A stretch of DNA of 57,545 bases, taken from positions 1 through 57,545 of the IMG/VR virus record IMGVR_UViG_3300034523_000291. One strand, given 5' to 3'. A program made the position numbers and the translations under genes. The notes below the pieces were generated by a model. That model made no database searches. It had not been told where the DNA came from and saw only the letters and a list, made by a program, of their open reading frames with translations. Within the stretch, counting starts at the first letter, position 1. Every line of letters begins with the position of its first letter. This DNA is from a virus. This document shows positions 1 through 28,150 of this stretch, piece by piece.

Positions 1-1194
1 TTAGGGTGCGCTTATTTGAACTGGGACCAATTTGGGACCAATCTGGAGCTTTTGCATTTCGCTCCAGTCCGAGCTTGAGTTGATCCAACGCGCATAAGTC
101 GAGAGCAGCATCTGCACACTATGGCCGAGCTGCTGGGAGATGAAGGCGGGGTTCATGCCAGACATAATGCATATTGTCGCATAGGTGTGACGACAGTTGT
201 ATGGCGGCCGACGACGGATATTCAAAGCCTTCAGAGTCGGAATCCACTGCTTGTGCAGGTCGGACGTCTGTTTCACGTACTCCGAGTTCTTTGAAGGCGG
301 GAATATGAAAGGCGTTTCCAGCACCTTGCCCTTGCCACTTTTCCGACGATTAGCGTAGTGCCTGGCGAACTGCAGGGCGTGCATCGCTCGATCGTTCAGC
401 AGCACGAAACGGTCTGAACCAGTCTTCGTCCGCTCCACCACTTCCCCCAAAGCGATCCCTCGACAAACGTGGGCAGTCCTCTTCTCTTCGTCTACCGCAT
501 CCCAGCGCATCGCTAGAGCTTCGGATAGACGCATGCCGGTGAAAAACACAAACTCAAAAAATGCCGCATAGATCGTGCTGGGCCAATGATCATGCGCGTA
601 CATCTTGGCGATGATCTGATTTGCTTCTTCCAGGGTGAACGGGTCGATCTCTTTTTTGCTGCGCTTGGGCAACTCCAGAATAGCCGCCGGGTTCTTCGGA
701 ATCAGTTCCTCGGATACGGCTGAGTTCAGGATGGTGGAAAGCTTCGAGATGGCGTTGCGCTTCACTCCCGGCGACTTCCACTCGTTCGTCGCCATTATCC
801 GGCGAAGCAGGGTGGTGGTGATCAGGTCAATCCGCACCAGGGCCAAGCCGGGCATCCAATAGCGGTTCAACGCGCCCTTGTAGTTTCCCTTCGTTCCAGC
901 GACCACCTCACGACTGTCTAGCCAGAGCTGGGCATACTCGCCGAAGTTGATCTTCCCGCCAGCTACGTTGTTGGAACTAGGGAAAAGCTCGGCGTACTTG
1001 TCGTCGTCGAGCAACCCCAGCTTGATCAGCCCTTTTACTTGATCAACAACCTGTGAGGCAGACTTGATTCCTTTCGGTGTCGGAGGATAGGGGAGCGTTT
1101 CACTGCGCCGGCTGCCGTTCCACATAAAGCGGATGCGGATCGATCCGTGGTGGAGGTCCATTCCTGCGGGCAAACCCATTGGCTTTCGAGCCAT
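1..1194 (-). CDS. int: Phage integrase, tyrosine recombinase
   Basis: This 397-residue protein would integrate and excise the prophage by site-specific recombination. The N-terminal part (about residues 10-60) looks like an Arm-type DNA-binding domain, residues 83-165 like a core-binding SAM-like domain, and 185-380 is the catalytic domain. Visible catalytic positions are Arg222 (TGMRLSEAL), Arg335 in YNCRHTYAT, His358 in QQLGHS and the nucleophile Tyr367 in STYARW. The box II His is replaced by Tyr332. The stop codon is at the first bases of the window, so attL/attP cannot be seen. Its start lies inside the 3' end of the excisionase-like gene, which suggests coupled expression. Confidence 0.96.
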   Translation of the reverse strand: MARKPMGLPAGMDLHHGSIRIRFMWNGSRRSETLPYPPTPKGIKSASQVVDQVKGLIKLGLLDDDKYAELFPSSNNVAGGKINFGEYAQLWLDSREVVAGTKGNYKGALNRYWMPGLALVRIDLITTTLLRRIMATNEWKSPGVKRNAISKLSTILNSAVSEELIPKNPAAILELPKRSKKEIDPFTLEEANQIIAKMYAHDHWPSTIYAAFFEFVFFTGMRLSEALAMRWDAVDEEKRTAHVCRGIALGEVVERTKTGSDRFVLLNDRAMHALQFARHYANRRKSGKGKVLETPFIFPPSKNSEYVKQTSDLHKQWIPTLKALNIRRRPPYNCRHTYATICIMSGMNPAFISQQLGHSVQMLLSTYARWINSSSDWSEMQKLQIGPKLVPVQISAP

Positions 1195-5006: not shown

Positions 5007-6443
5007 GTGAGTAAATACGCGCCCTTAGCAGACTTTCTGAAAGCCCAGGCGCAGGACTCTGTCCAACTGGCATTCGGTCAGATCGATGCGCTAGTCAATG
5101 GCCTGCCGCCCAGTGCACGGAATCATGATGCTTGGTGGGCGAACTCGCGTACGGAGGATAGCCACACGTGGGCTCACTTATGGATCGCTGCTGGTTGGGA
5201 ATGTGTGTCCGTTAACAGGGCAAATGAAACCGCAGTTTTTCACCGAGCCTCAAATCGCTTAGCAAAGCCCATGCGGCGCTACTGGTGGGTTAATCACAAG
5301 CAAACTCATCTAAATGAGTATGCTGGCGGATACATTTGGTCTCCAAAAGAAAAGCGTAATGGTGCGACCAACCAGACGTATCTGAACCTCACTCTCGTGA
5401 GTCCCGGTGATGTAGTAATTTCGTATGCGGATGGGCTAATAAAGGCAGTAGGCGTTGCTTCGGATGCACATCGCGAAGAGCCTATCCCCGACAGTCATTG
5501 GCAGGCTGCTGAATACTGGCAAGCTCTTGGCTGGATGGTGCCGATCATGTGGGCCAGGCTGGATCATCCAATTTCTCCAAAATTACACTTAGATGCCTTG
5601 TTGGACCTTCTTCCAGAGAAGCATTCCCCATTACAGAAAAATGGCGATGGAAATCAGGGATGTTACCTCGCAAGTATTTCTCCAGCGCTAGGTGGAGTGA
5701 TTCTGGGTCTGGTAGCGGATCGCGATTTGAAAGCGTTGACAACAATTCGGGTTACAGCTTCGTCACAAGTGAATGGGCCAGGGGAGGATCACCGCCGTTT
5801 ACCTGCAGAGCAATTACGCAGTGTAACCCCTGAGTATATTTGGGAGGCAGTGCAAAGCTTGCTTCAGGGCCTGACCTCGGAGGAGTTTGGGCCGTCGATT
5901 GATTATGATTTGTTGGTTGATGAAGGGAAGCGACTGGCACCGAAGCAGGTGTTTGGACTTGCCGCAACAGCCGCTCTAGGGTTCACTCTCAAGTCTCGCC
6001 ACTTCACCGCGGGGAAGGGAACTGTTTGTTTCGAACTGCTGGAAGCCGCGGGTTATAAAATAGTCCCGAAAGGCGAGCAAGTCGAGGTGCTCGAAATACC
6101 CAATGACACTGAAGATAGGGAGTGGGCCGAGGGCCAAGTCAAGCTGGTGTATCACCTGAAACGTGAACGCTCACCGGGTCTATCTAGAGCCAAGAAGGCT
6201 TCATTTATCAAGAGGCATGGCCGGCTTTTTTGCGAGGAGTGCGGAACAGATCCTGTCGAAGCGTATGGCGATTTTGGTGTGGCTTGTATTGAGGTTCATC
6301 ATGAGGCGATCCAGGTTGCAGATATGGGCGAGCAGCACAAGACAACCCTAGACCAATTGCGGTGCCTGTGTGCCAACTGTCATCGTGTTCTGCATCGCAA
6401 ATTGAAGGCTCAGATTGTTCACCCTACACCAGCTAACACTTAG
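5007..6443 (+). CDS. EVE-HNH (McrA-like) endonuclease
   Basis: 478 residues from a GTG with AGGAGG upstream. Parts in order: an N-terminal DUF7662-like region (about 1-80); a PUA/EVE-like domain beginning RRYWWVNHKQT with GGYIWSPKEK and SPGDVVISYADG (about 90-230); a ScoMcrA-like middle segment with LAPKQVFGLAATAALGF; and a C-terminal HNH nuclease with Cys409/Cys412, EVHHE at about 428-432 and CANCHRVLH at 455-463. EVE domains read modified cytosines in type IV restriction enzymes, so cleavage of modified foreign DNA is the likely role. Its stop overlaps the stop of the convergent PAPS-reductase-like gene. Confidence 0.88.
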   Translation: MSKYAPLADFLKAQAQDSVQLAFGQIDALVNGLPPSARNHDAWWANSRTEDSHTWAHLWIAAGWECVSVNRANETAVFHRASNRLAKPMRRYWWVNHKQTHLNEYAGGYIWSPKEKRNGATNQTYLNLTLVSPGDVVISYADGLIKAVGVASDAHREEPIPDSHWQAAEYWQALGWMVPIMWARLDHPISPKLHLDALLDLLPEKHSPLQKNGDGNQGCYLASISPALGGVILGLVADRDLKALTTIRVTASSQVNGPGEDHRRLPAEQLRSVTPEYIWEAVQSLLQGLTSEEFGPSIDYDLLVDEGKRLAPKQVFGLAATAALGFTLKSRHFTAGKGTVCFELLEAAGYKIVPKGEQVEVLEIPNDTEDREWAEGQVKLVYHLKRERSPGLSRAKKASFIKRHGRLFCEECGTDPVEAYGDFGVACIEVHHEAIQVADMGEQHKTTLDQLRCLCANCHRVLHRKLKAQIVHPTPANT

Positions 6444-7231
6444 CCCGACGCTATTTCCGCAGCGCTCGGTTGATAGTCGGCTTCAGCCATCTCGCAAAAA
6501 AAAGAGCAAGCTGGTAACGCCTCGTTTCGTCGGGGTTTACCAGGCGAAAGGTCACGTAGAGAGAAACGGATATTGGTCTTACGGTCGCGATGCAGGTACG
6601 AGCCTGAGCCAAGTTCGTCCTGGACACGGCAAAGCTCTTCAAATTGCTCCGGAAAGTCCTCGCGGATCGCTCGAAAGTAGCCTTCGCCACCTTTCACGCA
6701 GCCGATGCAGTTGGCGTTGTCGTAGCCCAGGCGGTACATCAGTGGCAACTCGATCCCAGCGCGCTGGATCATCGCCTTGCAATCCTCTTTGCCCAGGCCC
6801 GCGTCAATCAGCGGGGCAATAACAGGGCGATCAGGGTTTCGGTCTCGGAAGTCTTCCAGGCGGTCTACTTCTTCCATCGTGTAACCAAACACCATCACGT
6901 CGCCAGGGTTCTTCCATGCGTCGAGCAACCGCCGTTTCAACAGCTTTGTGCATGGCGCACCATTGCGCCCTTTCATGAAACGCTCGCGCCGGAAAACCTG
7001 AATGATGTCTGCGCCGTATTTCTCGTCACGCAGTTGCGCAATTCCCTGACCGAACCACTCCTGGCAGTCCAGCAAGAACCGCCGGTTATCTTCATGCTCG
7101 TTTGCCAGAAAAGCATTGATGATCTGCACGTCGTGCGTGGCGCCGTATTGTGCCAGGGCCATCTTTGTGGCCACAGCCGAGGCGGCGCCGCAGCTGAACT
7201 GGCAAACGATTCGGGGTCGTTGTGCGGACAT
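6440..7231 (-). CDS. PAPS reductase-like PP-loop protein
   Basis: 263 residues. The N-terminal SCGAASAVATK is a PP-loop type ATP-binding motif (residues 13-23), followed by FLANEHEDNRRFL, and a Cys pair NCIGCVKGG (Cys175/Cys178) plus Cys94 in APCTKLLKRR. This is the phage branch of the phosphoadenosine-phosphosulfate reductase family. Such proteins are common in phages; whether they act in sulfur metabolism, tRNA thiolation or DNA modification is not settled, and no dnd or dpd partner genes are seen here. Confidence 0.82.
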   Translation of the reverse strand: MSAQRPRIVCQFSCGAASAVATKMALAQYGATHDVQIINAFLANEHEDNRRFLLDCQEWFGQGIAQLRDEKYGADIIQVFRRERFMKGRNGAPCTKLLKRRLLDAWKNPGDVMVFGYTMEEVDRLEDFRDRNPDRPVIAPLIDAGLGKEDCKAMIQRAGIELPLMYRLGYDNANCIGCVKGGEGYFRAIREDFPEQFEELCRVQDELGSGSYLHRDRKTNIRFSLRDLSPGKPRRNEALPACSFFCEMAEADYQPSAAEIASG

Positions 7232-17423: not shown

Positions 17424-18497
17424 TCAGACAACCCTGAGACGAGGAGGCGTTATCGGACGGTTCGGCTCGGGTTGCTCTCCTAGCACCCCTTGGAGAAGAG
17501 AGTCCATCTCATCGAGAGGAAGGTTAAGTTGATCGGCAATCGACTCCTTCGTATAGCGATCCTTCCAAAGCTCTTCAAGCACTTTTCGCCAAAGCACAGA
17601 GAATTCCCTATCCATAGATTGGGGTTCCTTTGTTCTATAGCCAGCTATTGCAATCTGCTTGCAGATCTCTCTGTAATGCCAATCAGATAAAATATTTACA
17701 TCCCTAAGGCTCCGAGCCAAAGCAGGTACAGAAACTCCCCATCTTTTCTTGCTGGCGATAATTTGTGAAATGGATCTTACTGAGGGAAGATTTGCAATCA
17801 AATCTTCCCTGGGTATCAACAGGTTAGACGCAAATGCGTCCGCATCTCGCTCAACATCAGAGCCTTCAGTATAACCATGCGCATGCATTAGCAAATGGCC
17901 CAGCTCATGAGCGGCGTCGAACCGGCTGCGTTCTGACGACTTTATGGTATTCAAAAAAATAAATGGAGTGCCATCTCTCCAAAATGAGAATGCGTCAACG
18001 TCACGACCTTCCGACAAAGTGAAGATCCGAACACCTTTAGATTCGAGAAGCTTGATCAAGTTTGGTATAGGACGGAACCCAAGGCCCCAATGACGCCTAA
18101 TTGATGCTGCAGCTGAAACTGGATCTTCATCTCTTAGATCGAGTAGGTCTTGTGTGGGAAGATTAAATTTACTTGCAACCCAGTCGTTGAATAGATACCC
18201 AAGCGCACCGCTGGCTAATGCCGCGTCTGTTTGTTTGGCAGTCATTGATTTTAGACTACGAAAACTTACCTGCTTGCTATGTAGCTCATCTACATCGTCA
18301 AGATAAAAGAACTCAACTGGATACTTTAAAGCCTTCGCTATTGCGGCTACTGTTTCTGTTGAGGGTTCAATGGTAACCCCTTTTGCTATCCTAGAGAGTG
18401 TGACTTGAGTAACTCCAGACAGCTCTGCGAGTTTTTTTTGCGTAAGCTGCCTGCGCTTTCTAGCGAAGTCGAGCCGTGAAAGATTGAGATTCGCCAT
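17424..18497 (-). CDS. XRE regulator with ImmA/IrrE protease
   Basis: 357 residues. Residues 7-65 are an XRE helix-turn-helix (LTQKKLAELSGVTQVTLSRI). The central part is a COG2856/ImmA-type zinc metallopeptidase with HELGH at 197-201 and the third ligand region VERDADAFASNLLIP (Glu216). The C-terminus (to RLRVV) is helical. In related systems ImmA cleaves a repressor to release mobile-element or stress genes. The gene starts 2 bp after the stop of the partner at 18500, so the two form one operon controlled by the 45-bp dyad upstream of the partner. Confidence 0.88.
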   Translation of the reverse strand: MANLNLSRLDFARKRRQLTQKKLAELSGVTQVTLSRIAKGVTIEPSTETVAAIAKALKYPVEFFYLDDVDELHSKQVSFRSLKSMTAKQTDAALASGALGYLFNDWVASKFNLPTQDLLDLRDEDPVSAAASIRRHWGLGFRPIPNLIKLLESKGVRIFTLSEGRDVDAFSFWRDGTPFIFLNTIKSSERSRFDAAHELGHLLMHAHGYTEGSDVERDADAFASNLLIPREDLIANLPSVRSISQIIASKKRWGVSVPALARSLRDVNILSDWHYREICKQIAIAGYRTKEPQSMDREFSVLWRKVLEELWKDRYTKESIADQLNLPLDEMDSLLQGVLGEQPEPNRPITPPRLRVV

Positions 18498-18499
18498 CT

Positions 18500-19144
18500 T
18501 TATTTTTTCGAAATCAGAATTTCTGGCTCATCGACAATGCCTTCCGCCGCGGGAGCAGTCGCGAATTCCAGCAGGTCGATATCTTTATCAGCAACAAAAA
18601 TTCGGTCAAAGAAACCTACGAAGTGATCTTCTGTGAATGGTTTTGGCCTGGATACCTCAACCTCCAATCGTTTTGCGTTAGCCGATACGCAAACGAACCA
18701 TACCACCGGAAAGCTACCATCCGGACGACTGTCCACAACATCAGCCCTAGGGAAGAGACTTTGCGCATGAGGGGCAGCTACTAAATCACGTGTAGCCTCT
18801 CCTTTAGGTGAAATCGCTTGCGGCTCGATATCCTTGCAAGCGTGATCTACGTTTTGAAAACCCAGCATGATCCCAAGGTCGTCATTAACTACAATCTCGA
18901 TATTTCTGAAGTTGCCAGTTCTCCAACCGCTAGGAAGTGTCTCTAGGCGGAGGTGCCGAATCCCGGCCTGATAAGCTTGAGTACCAGGGAAGTTGACTGG
19001 GTCAACCCCTTCTAGGTATTCGGATCGAGCGCTCGCTGCTGCCATACCAATTTTGATGATCTGGTCAGAGGTGAGACCCAGGGCGTCAAGGCTGCGCTTA
19101 ATATCGTATGGCTGGTCGATAATACCGAGAGCATGATTGGACAT
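18500..19144 (-). CDS. Partner protein of XRE-ImmA
   Basis: 214 residues from the ATG at 19144, with AGGTG upstream; an earlier in-frame start at 19204 would lie in the dyad operator. Contains MSNHALGIIDQPYDIKRSLD, FRNIEIVVNDDLGIMLGFQ and a C-terminal VEVSRPKPFTEDHFVGFFDR. No domain was recognised. The same operon as an ImmA protease suggests it is a substrate, toxin or sensor partner; this is inference. The arrangement resembles a two-gene toxin-antitoxin or defence unit. Confidence 0.75.
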   Translation of the reverse strand: MSNHALGIIDQPYDIKRSLDALGLTSDQIIKIGMAAASARSEYLEGVDPVNFPGTQAYQAGIRHLRLETLPSGWRTGNFRNIEIVVNDDLGIMLGFQNVDHACKDIEPQAISPKGEATRDLVAAPHAQSLFPRADVVDSRPDGSFPVVWFVCVSANAKRLEVEVSRPKPFTEDHFVGFFDRIFVADKDIDLLEFATAPAAEGIVDEPEILISKK

Positions 19145-19155
19145 ATTTTCACCTG

Positions 19156-19200
19156 ATGTTAATTTTTTCTTCCTACATTGTAGGTTAAAAAAATTAACAT
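19156..19200. promoter_or_regulatory. 45-bp dyad operator of XRE-ImmA operon
   Basis: A 13-bp outer inverted repeat (ATGTTAATTTTTT at 19156-19168 and its complement at 19188-19200) and an inner one (CCTACA-T-TGTAGG, 19172-19184) share the same centre at 19178. A leftward promoter candidate (TTGCAT, 16 nt, TACAAT) lies across it. A strong candidate for autoregulation by the XRE domain. Confidence 0.75.
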
Positions 19201-19270
19201 GCAATGGCTGGTCGATGAGCGCGCAGGCCTTTCGGATTTACTTCAGTGATCCTGTCCGACCACAGTCGCC

Positions 19271-19513
19271 TCAAAAACGCGCGCCATAGAAGTGATTCAG
19301 CGCTATCAGTTCAACCACAGCCACGAAAACGCAGAGCACAACGAAGCCAGGGCTGAAGACCCGCTTGCGGCCGGATGAGCTCCAGCTAAGACCAGCTGCG
19401 TCGGAGTAGCCGGGGATCATCATAAGCAACGCCAGGCAAGCAATTACCCCAACCTTGCTCCAGAAGGACCGCTCTCGCCATGAGGTCGAAGGTTTTCCAA
19501 GGGCGGATGGCAT
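19271..19513 (-). CDS. Membrane protein coupled to cI
   Basis: 80 residues with two hydrophobic segments (about 19-36, VGVIACLALLMMIPG, and 53-75, GFVVLCVFVAVVELIAL). Its ATG overlaps the cI stop (TGATG), so it should be translated in the lysogen along with repressor. Position equals rexA in lambda, and a role in excluding other phages is plausible, but no family was recognised. Confidence 0.72.
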   Translation of the reverse strand: MPSALGKPSTSWRERSFWSKVGVIACLALLMMIPGYSDAAGLSWSSSGRKRVFSPGFVVLCVFVAVVELIALNHFYGARF

Positions 19514-20172
19514 CAGTAAAATTTCTGCAGCGCCTGCACAACCACGCCCACGATCCGGCAGTTCTCGTCCACCGCCTCGATCGGGTAGCTGGGGTTCAGC
19601 GGCTTCAGGAACAGTCGACCGCCATCGCTGACCAGCTTCTTGAACGTCGCTTCGTTGCTGTCTGGCAGCTTGGCTACCACCAGCTTGCCTGGGGCGACTT
19701 CGGCCTCAGTGTCCACCAGGATCAGAGTGCCTTCAGTGATGCTCTGACCGGCGGGCGCCGTCATTGAGTCACCTTTCACCTTCAGCCAAAACGCTGTGCC
19801 CTTGGAGTCGTACTCCGAAAACTCATAGCTGTCAGAGAATCCGGCCGGGTAGGGCTCAACAGCCTCCGCCCAGGCGCCGGCGGCAACCCAGCTGATTACG
19901 GGGTAGCGGAATGATTTGGTGGGCTGCGCGGCAATAGAGATATTTGACTCGGCAGCGCTTACACCTGTCATTGGCCCGGTATTTTCGGAGAGCCAAATAG
20001 CGTTCACACCACACACATGGGCGATCTTCGGCAGGTGTGCGCTTTGAAGGTTCTTTCCGGTCTCCAGCTGGGAGATTACCGGCTGCTCAACACCCACTTT
20101 TAAGGCGAGCGCCTTCTGCGTCAGCTTGGCGTGATTGCGTGCGGTTTTGATTCGTTCGGCGAGTGTGCTCAT
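19513..20172 (-). CDS. cI: CI repressor, LexA/S24 type
   Basis: 219 residues from the ATG at 20172. Residues 5-62 form an XRE helix-turn-helix (LTQKALALKVGVEQPVISQL). The C-terminal half is a LexA-like self-cleaving peptidase: cleavage site Ala98-Gly99 (VAAGAW), nucleophile Ser136 in KGDSM and Lys178 in TFKKL. It should hold the prophage silent through the operators at 20185-20245 and 15312-15350 and cleave itself on RecA activation. No Shine-Dalgarno precedes the ATG, which lies only about 9 bp after a TATAAA box, so the message from that promoter would be almost leaderless. Confidence 0.93.
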   Translation of the reverse strand: MSTLAERIKTARNHAKLTQKALALKVGVEQPVISQLETGKNLQSAHLPKIAHVCGVNAIWLSENTGPMTGVSAAESNISIAAQPTKSFRYPVISWVAAGAWAEAVEPYPAGFSDSYEFSEYDSKGTAFWLKVKGDSMTAPAGQSITEGTLILVDTEAEVAPGKLVVAKLPDSNEATFKKLVSDGGRLFLKPLNPSYPIEAVDENCRIVGVVVQALQKFY

Positions 20173-20181
20173 CAGCTGGAA

Positions 20182-20209
20182 TTTATAAGTTCCCTTATCG
20201 GCTTGCAAA
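20182..20209 (-). promoter_or_regulatory. PRM-like promoter for cI
   Basis: On the minus strand TTTGCA (20204-20209), 16 nt, TATAAA (20182-20187). Transcription would begin 1-4 nt before the cI ATG, as at lambda PRM. The -10 overlaps the operator nearest cI. Confidence 0.55.
20185..20198. promoter_or_regulatory. Operator OR3-like
   Basis: ATAAGT-TC-CCTTAT, a variant of the ATAAGC-N2-GCTTAT dyad. It overlaps the -10 of the cI promoter, so filling it would limit cI synthesis. Confidence 0.65.
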
Positions 20210-20231
20210 TAAGTTTCCTTCTACTTAGGAT
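20203..20231 (+). promoter_or_regulatory. PR-like promoter for cro
   Basis: TTGCAA (20203-20208), 17 nt, TAGGAT (20226-20231). The middle operator lies between its -35 and -10 and the strongest operator just after the -10. Confidence 0.6.
20209..20222. promoter_or_regulatory. Operator OR2-like
   Basis: ATAAGT-TT-CCTTCT, an imperfect copy of the dyad, 24 bp from the site near cI and 23 bp from the site near cro. The spacing of about two helical turns is as in lambda OR. Confidence 0.5.
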
Positions 20232-20245
20232 ATAAGCAGGCTTAT
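20232..20245. promoter_or_regulatory. Operator OR1-like
   Basis: ATAAGC-AG-GCTTAT, perfect 6-bp arms, 15 bp before the cro start and at the predicted start of the cro transcript. Identical to the distal site at 15337-15350. Confidence 0.82.
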
Positions 20246-20253
20246 CAGGAGGG

Positions 20254-28108: not shown

Positions 28109-28150
28109 ATCCGCGCCACGTTTTCGAATGCGCCAAATCGTGGCGCGGAT
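28109..28150. repeat. GCGCCACG inverted repeat, copy C
   Basis: In the gap between two leftward genes: ATCCGCGCCACG (28109-28120) and CGTGGCGCGGAT (28139-28150), perfect 12-bp arms with an 18-nt spacer. This copy has the longest arms of the three. No T tract, so it is not a simple terminator. Confidence 0.75.

Follow-up and report, generated by a model that had tools for sequence, protein, structure and literature searches.

A phage-borne RosmerTA gene pair behind a conserved double dyad: a putative two-part operator and a candidate clamp-binding loop

What does a 45-bp double dyad do directly in front of a two-gene unit on phage DNA, which protein would read its two pairs of arms, and what is the partner encoded ahead of that protein? 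We consider these questions for the dyad at 19156-19200 in an IMG/VR virus record of 57,545 bases, the whole stretch analysed here and called the window below. Judged by its gene content, the window is a temperate siphophage: profile matches mark an integrase (1-1194) and a cI-like S24 repressor (19513-20208), and genes for a CII-like protein, an anti-repressor, terminase, portal and tape-measure proteins are also present. As to the host, Pseudomonas is our guess. The phage also carries a phosphoadenosine phosphosulfate reductase-like accessory gene (6443-7231, minus strand). Between the cI-like and cro-like genes, three 16-nt direct repeats of the TATAAGTTCCCTTATC type (20184-20246, spacing 24 and 23 nt) are probably the phage's own operators. 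An 80-aa protein with two likely membrane stretches, which matches the function-less PHROG family phrog_29612, is encoded between the cI-like gene and the two-gene unit (19271-19513, minus strand).

Both genes of the unit lie on the minus strand. The first, rmrT (18500-19144, 214 aa), has its ATG at 19144 and is followed after a 2-nt gap by rmrA (17424-18497, 357 aa), which is the operon that the preliminary description had proposed. That description had called the 214-aa protein unrecognised, a label that no longer applies: the PADLOC profiles for the RosmerTA toxin match RmrT (PDLC03932, E 2.7e-29; PDLC03935, E 4e-26), and PDLC03935 matches all 122 of the 122 RmrT members in our alignment A3 (plasmid loci and a few partial or odd rows were left out of alignments A3 and A4). 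RmrT had looked unrecognised because Pfam, PHROGs and NCBIfam hold no RmrT family; the window protein has no match in any of the three, and a Pfam search with the 122 members gave no convincing match either (best E 0.014, no family with more than one member). RmrA matches the antitoxin profile PDLC03946 (E 8e-134) as well as HTH_3 and Peptidase_M78 (PF06114), both above cut-off. The fusion described for the frame 18497-17424 is thus real and of the ImmA (M78) type, with an XRE domain at residues 6-65 (18303-18482, minus strand) and a HELGH zinc motif at residues 197-201 (17895-17909, minus strand) in one chain, modelled at pLDDT 94.4. By its profiles the pair is RosmerTA, a known anti-phage toxin-antitoxin family, and the system as such is not new. 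RosmerTA is named in many defence surveys, and Millman et al. 2022 is cited as its source. The available part of PMC10440598 lists that work among its RosmerTA sources and describes a member carried by a phage. Fused XRE-M78 antitoxins are already known from there and from the part of PMC12795458 at hand.

We now turn to the dyad itself. Its outer arms (19156-19168 and 19188-19200) are perfect over 13 bp and its inner arms (19172-19177 and 19179-19184) are perfect over 6 bp, the two pairs share one centre at 19178 and are separated by three mismatched pairs, so that the coordinates and the nested geometry proposed earlier are exact. A repeat search sees the same structure as two 22-nt arms (19156-19177 and 19179-19200), 86% complementary and 1 nt apart. 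With a score of 16 this is the highest-scoring short dyad in the window, the next separate one reaching 14 at 28128. In 100 dinucleotide-preserving shuffles of the full sequence the score never exceeds 15. Dyads scoring 13-14, that second one included, lie at 28128, 17795 and 15329. The dyad sits between a putative -35 box and the rmrT Shine-Dalgarno sequence AGGTG (19150-19154, minus strand, assigned by eye), which adjoins it. We also considered that the dyad might be coding, since an upstream TTG at 19204 would extend rmrT through it and two related contigs (L003 and L004) share the start of the peptide read from that codon. This reading was dropped because DNA conservation of the dyad explains the shared peptide and a good Shine-Dalgarno sequence precedes the ATG at 19144.

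To see how far this arrangement extends we collected relatives. A single-protein query with RmrT found four relatives in viral contigs and eight on plasmids, with none in genome contigs or phage records, and three further RmrA queries against viral contigs gave few loci; compared with the single-protein RmrT query, the RmrA alignment was the productive one. Of its 490 matches in genome contigs and its 152 in viral contigs we kept the best 80 each, which restricts all conservation figures to close relatives of RmrA; some of the resulting 160 loci lie on contigs L001-L004. In 158 of the 160 an RmrT-family frame is found ahead of RmrA, and in both exceptions (L069 and L172) RmrA lies at a contig edge. 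In one locus (L065) the RmrT frame is split into two ORFs ahead of the RmrA frame, by natural inactivation or an assembly error, and in another (L085) only a weak fragment of it is seen. Pseudomonadota, Actinomycetota, Acidobacteriota, Gemmatimonadota, Myxococcota, Chloroflexota and other groups are represented among the loci.

Searching by symmetry alone, we find a significant dyad (a score reached by at most 1 of 60 shuffles) before the operon in 96 of 129 non-redundant relatives, three of 132 representatives having been dropped for short upstream sequence. Aligned on their centres, these dyads share one plan. The inner half-site CC(T/A)C occupies positions 6-3, a T-tract follows at 14-11, and the outer half-site lies at 20-16, where most dyads have T at 19. 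With a weight matrix we recover the operator in 116 of 130 loci above the maximum of 124 control segments, a count that is not independent since the matrix was trained on 99 of these sites, and that includes L085 among the 130 although its site is an artefact. Loci with a matrix score of 2 or less were left out of the tree-controlled covariation, the covariation ranking and the promoter and class counts. The operators fall into two classes: class I, with G at outer half-site position 20, has 48 loci including the window and class II has 64, while 11 further sites fit neither. In a further sample (7 of 26 phage-collection records with matches, chosen for host variety) a dyad search in six of the seven regions gave no convincing double dyad, although one of the six (L177) has an RmrT-family partner, and the operator may therefore be limited to the subfamily studied. 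Among the close RmrA relatives, the double dyad is a family-wide putative operator, probably an on-off switch, kept across many bacterial phyla. Our literature search found no operator described for RosmerTA in the works it returned, as far as their available text goes.

An operator should bear some relation to a promoter. By eye, the window has a putative -10 box TACAAT at the dyad centre (19177-19182, minus strand) and, 16 nt from it at the outer dyad edge, a putative -35 box TTGCAT (19199-19204, minus strand). The promoter that the preliminary description had placed under the dyad is plausible on this basis and gains support from relatives, although a consensus promoter scan did not list the TTGCAT/TACAAT pair (2 promoters found against 2.2 in shuffles). 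In class I, 41 of 48 loci have a TTGA or TTGC whose first base lies 25-30 nt ahead of the dyad centre, compared with 4 of 48 for a control interval, an arrangement that places the -10 box near the dyad centre. For class II, a TTG lies within the left arm in 36 of 64 loci and a TANNN[AT] box lies right of the centre in 36 of 64; here the left arm does not mirror the right at position 17, where 32 of 64 loci have a left T facing a right C; this is the base that the TTG needs. Promoter elements inside or beside the dyad in both classes are as expected for repression.

The same result bears on an entirely different use of the dyad. Arms of 22 nt directly before a Shine-Dalgarno sequence could form an RNA hairpin in the 5' leader that controls translation, in which case there would be no operator at all. 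Promoter elements in or at the edge of the dyad (41/48 in class I, 36/64 in class II) would start transcription after the left arm, so neither class would transcribe the complete hairpin; moreover, the outer bases covary with a DNA-recognition helix, as described next. We reject the hairpin on the promoter position and give it next to no credence.

If the dyad is an operator, which part of RmrA reads which arm? The raw associations already point to the XRE domain for the outer arms: Arg36 and a G at outer position 20 occur together in 47 of 49 loci, Val or Ile32 co-occurs with TA at positions 18-17 in 23 of 24, and both residues lie within helix 31-38, which in the RmrA model is the XRE recognition helix. 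A first covariation run on 79 evenly spaced loci had no tree control and gave higher scores than its tree-based repeat. For the latter the tree was derived from the peptidase core alone, and joint changes of operator and residue were counted per branch, stratified by branch length, over 117 loci. Under this control the pair of R36 and position 20 falls to z 3.44, and the leaders become S35 for the outer positions and R276 for the inner ones. By region, among 347 windows of equal length the XRE window 30-39 ranks within the first 2 for the outer positions and at 111 for the inner ones. The inner positions favour RmrA window 272-285, which ranks within the first 3 of 343, with five joint changes of R276 and inner position 3 against 0.7 expected. 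Farther along, Q336 shows four joint changes with the inner positions against 0.8 expected (z 4.07), and the C-terminal helix window 328-339 is not enriched for these positions (281 of 345). Single pairs are weak evidence because some 8,000 were scored, and the list includes high-ranking pairs without obvious meaning (F64, I228, S171 and others); it is the regional ranking that carries the argument.

Read in this way, the covariation makes the XRE domain the probable reader of the outer arms and something in the C-terminal half of RmrA the probable reader of the inner arms, and it is this split that makes RmrA look like an autorepressor with two DNA-reading heads. The claim that the dyad controls the operon is therefore very likely right, backed by conservation and by the covariation of operator bases with the recognition helix, with the amendment that the XRE domain seems to read the outer arms only. 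The inner arms call for some caution. By sequence order, RmrA 272-285 should match the internal HTH of PprI. According to the part of PMC10904395 at hand, that HTH is partly buried and PprI forms a stable complex only with single-stranded DNA among the nucleic acids tested, which argues against the corresponding RmrA helix reading double-stranded DNA.

An operator with a dedicated repressor beside a cI-like gene (19513-20208) raises the question of whether the unit might be a second lysogeny switch, with RmrA as an immunity repressor and neither defence nor addiction involved. The setting, a phage with integrase, CII-like and anti-repressor genes, would suit that role; against it, plasmids and genome contigs of bacteria from many phyla carry the same pair, and we regard the switch as very improbable. 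In the related phage contigs L002, L003 and L004 the Rosmer pair likewise follows a repressor-like gene, whose type differs in L003, as if this position were a cargo site. In the plasmid loci L006, L008, L009 and L011 the pair adjoins DprA-like, restriction or methylase genes, a defence-island setting.

What, then, does RmrT do? The structure prediction of 18500-19144 that had been proposed as a check delivers a confident model (pLDDT 89.8) of an alpha/beta protein and no clear structural relative: Foldseek with the model returns no match at E <= 0.001, and no clamp-binding protein or known toxin fold is prominent in the fold searches. A second look with VIA places NaeI at Z 7.1 (rmsd 3.5 over 133 residues) and, in the same list, SfiI, EcoRV, HincII, BglII and Holliday junction resolving enzymes, with restriction endonucleases at Z 4-7; these we take to be one superfamily. 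Hence RmrT could be a nuclease-like toxin of a diverged PD-(D/E)XK fold within a RosmerTA pair, its Q-x-x-L-F loop (described below) being only structural or a site for antitoxin binding. A Z below 8, however, may mean a common arrangement only, and the conserved residues (R66, W74, D100, K/R114, E163, S165 and R181) show no D...(D/E)xK triad in the central strands on inspection of alignment A3. A nuclease of this kind is, in our estimate, improbable.

A different function is suggested by the loop that follows helix 116-127. Here 46 of 122 RmrT members carry the motif Q-x-x-[LM]-F, compared with a mean of 1.2 and a maximum of 4 in shuffled loops and with 1 of 475 other stretches of the same proteins, although the shuffle controls overstate the enrichment because family members are not independent. 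The bacterial clamp-binding consensus is QL(S/D)LF and possibly much more variable, according to the available part of PMC9690074. Counting the six-residue form as well (QLSLPF, QLDLPL, QLTLDF), 67 of 122 members have a motif of one form or the other and 55 have neither. This six-residue form of the clamp-binding motif is also accepted. The window protein has a degenerate version, AQSLF, at codons 127-131 (18752-18766, minus strand, from alignment A3), in which LF is kept and the first Q is missing; relatives at 50-55% identity (L003, L004, L096 and L101) have Q-x-x-L-F at this place. Because its first motif letter is A and not Q, the clamp step is weaker for the window copy.

The motif also appears outside the family in which we noticed it. 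Among 23 non-redundant partners of more distant RmrA proteins, none of which matches the RmrT profile (E >= 0.005), six carry Q-x-x-[LM]-F, in every case between residues 116 and 140. For residues 100-150 the expectation is 0.18, and not one of 2000 shuffles attains six; these 23 toxins are partly related to each other and one of them (L228) is probably no real gene. Examples are QLSLF, QLDLF, QFDLF and QYNLF. We found no published clamp-binding motif in a Rosmer toxin in the literature searched, nor an experimental study of the RmrT subfamily of the window. The motif fits the action of RipA, a pneumococcal Rosmer toxin which, as reported in the part of PMC12795458 available, acts on the sliding clamp DnaN, binds it physically and has its suppressors all in the hydrophobic protein-binding pocket; the comparison is with RipA's described target, and the word 'motif' is absent from the main text of that paper.

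It remains to ask what the peptidase is for. Residues H197, E198, H201 and E216 (HExxH and a third ligand, presumably the one used by M78 peptidases) are invariant in 125 of 125 RmrA proteins, so proteolysis probably matters, and RmrA may cleave RmrT, or itself in trans, with RmrT as effector or substrate, as the preliminary description had suggested. A site could be offered by the conserved charged tail D-x-D-[IV]-x-[VI]-x-[RK]-K at RmrT residues ~201-214 (18503-18544, minus strand), which follows a low-confidence linker; it is possible that this tail is an antitoxin contact or a protease site. PprI and CapP do cleave XRE-type repressors, as described in the available part of PMC10904395. On the other side, one Streptococcus RosmerTA homologue has no M78 domain (PMC12322248, where the Streptococcus homologues tested were inefficient against most phages), and RipAB comes without shown cleavage in the passages at hand of PMC12795458. 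Weighing these points, we consider such cleavage rather unlikely.

The explanation that we prefer, with moderate confidence and as a whole, is an accessory defence module of a temperate siphophage: a RosmerTA pair with an autorepressing RmrA, a two-part operator and a DnaN-blocking RmrT. In the mechanism that we infer, which extends to repression, dimer geometry, toxicity, clamp binding, trigger and defence, RmrA (XRE, zinc-peptidase and C-terminal helical units) would be both antitoxin and autorepressor. An RmrA dimer on the 45-bp double dyad, which overlaps the operon promoter, would keep RNA polymerase off, its XRE domains on the outer half-sites and its C-terminal half on the inner ones, and RmrA would at the same time hold RmrT inactive. 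Once RmrA is removed or triggered, RmrT would be freed and the operon derepressed. For the related peptidases PprI and CapP the activating signal is single-stranded DNA. Freed RmrT would most likely block replication, the loop at ~127-131 binding the clamp DnaN and thus stopping both host and phage replication.

The results computed here are the assignment to the family, the operator with its conservation, the split in the covariation and the enrichment of the motif. What is new, as far as sequence comparison can suggest, is a two-part operator that extends across the family and whose code can be read, together with a concrete hypothesis for the toxin target. A more general reading, in which the RosmerTA toxins of this large multi-phylum family and the distant ones are DnaN poisons acting through a Q-x-x-L-F loop and the antitoxin is a two-headed repressor (XRE domain on the outer arms, C-terminal half on the inner), is tentative and in our view somewhat short of probable. 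If that reading is true, promoter control, neutralisation and protease-based sensing would reside in one protein. In the literature we found, Rosmer toxin targets are known for single cases only, and with a common clamp-binding motif a large subfamily would gain a target that is simple to test, just as the double dyad would offer a recognisable DNA signature for these operons and a readable recognition code for the antitoxin. Should the protease-bearing half of RmrA read the inner arms, DNA binding and protease sensing could be coupled, and such coupling would show how a fused repressor-protease is switched.

How does the pair compare with known systems? It shares with RosmerTA (RmrT/RmrA) the two-gene operon, the XRE-M78 antitoxin and PADLOC profiles for both genes. 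RmrA has an M78 zinc peptidase in common with IrrE/PprI-DdrO, ImmA-ImmR and CapP-CapH, and its fold matches include CapP (Z 11.0, residues 124-292) and SinR/DdrO-type HTHs, but in those systems protease and repressor are separate whereas RmrA is one 357-aa chain. RipAB (Spr1630-Spr1629) of Streptococcus pneumoniae, the most closely studied Rosmer pair in the literature we found, has an XRE-ImmA antitoxin as here; the match of window RmrA to the spr1629 model has E 7.8e-36, but at 124 of 335 bits it is far below the cut-off. In the passages of PMC12795458 at hand, the partner in RipAB is a toxin that the fusion antagonises, no cleavage is shown and, as a difference, RipB action depends on ClpX. 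The RosmerTA of Gordonia phage Kita is phage-borne, has an ImmA-domain antitoxin and was shown to be toxic and anti-phage; its toxin D5 is membrane-associated and depolarising (PMC10440598, available part), whereas window RmrT is modelled as an alpha/beta protein, and since the Kita toxin depolarises membranes, Rosmer toxins do not have one common target. Finally, in SocAB of Caulobacter the toxin SocB uses a clamp-binding motif to block DnaN (PMC9690074, in the text available). The RipAB authors report no homology between SocB and RipA (PMC12795458, available part), and we claim none here; SocB stands as a precedent for a toxin with a clamp-binding motif.
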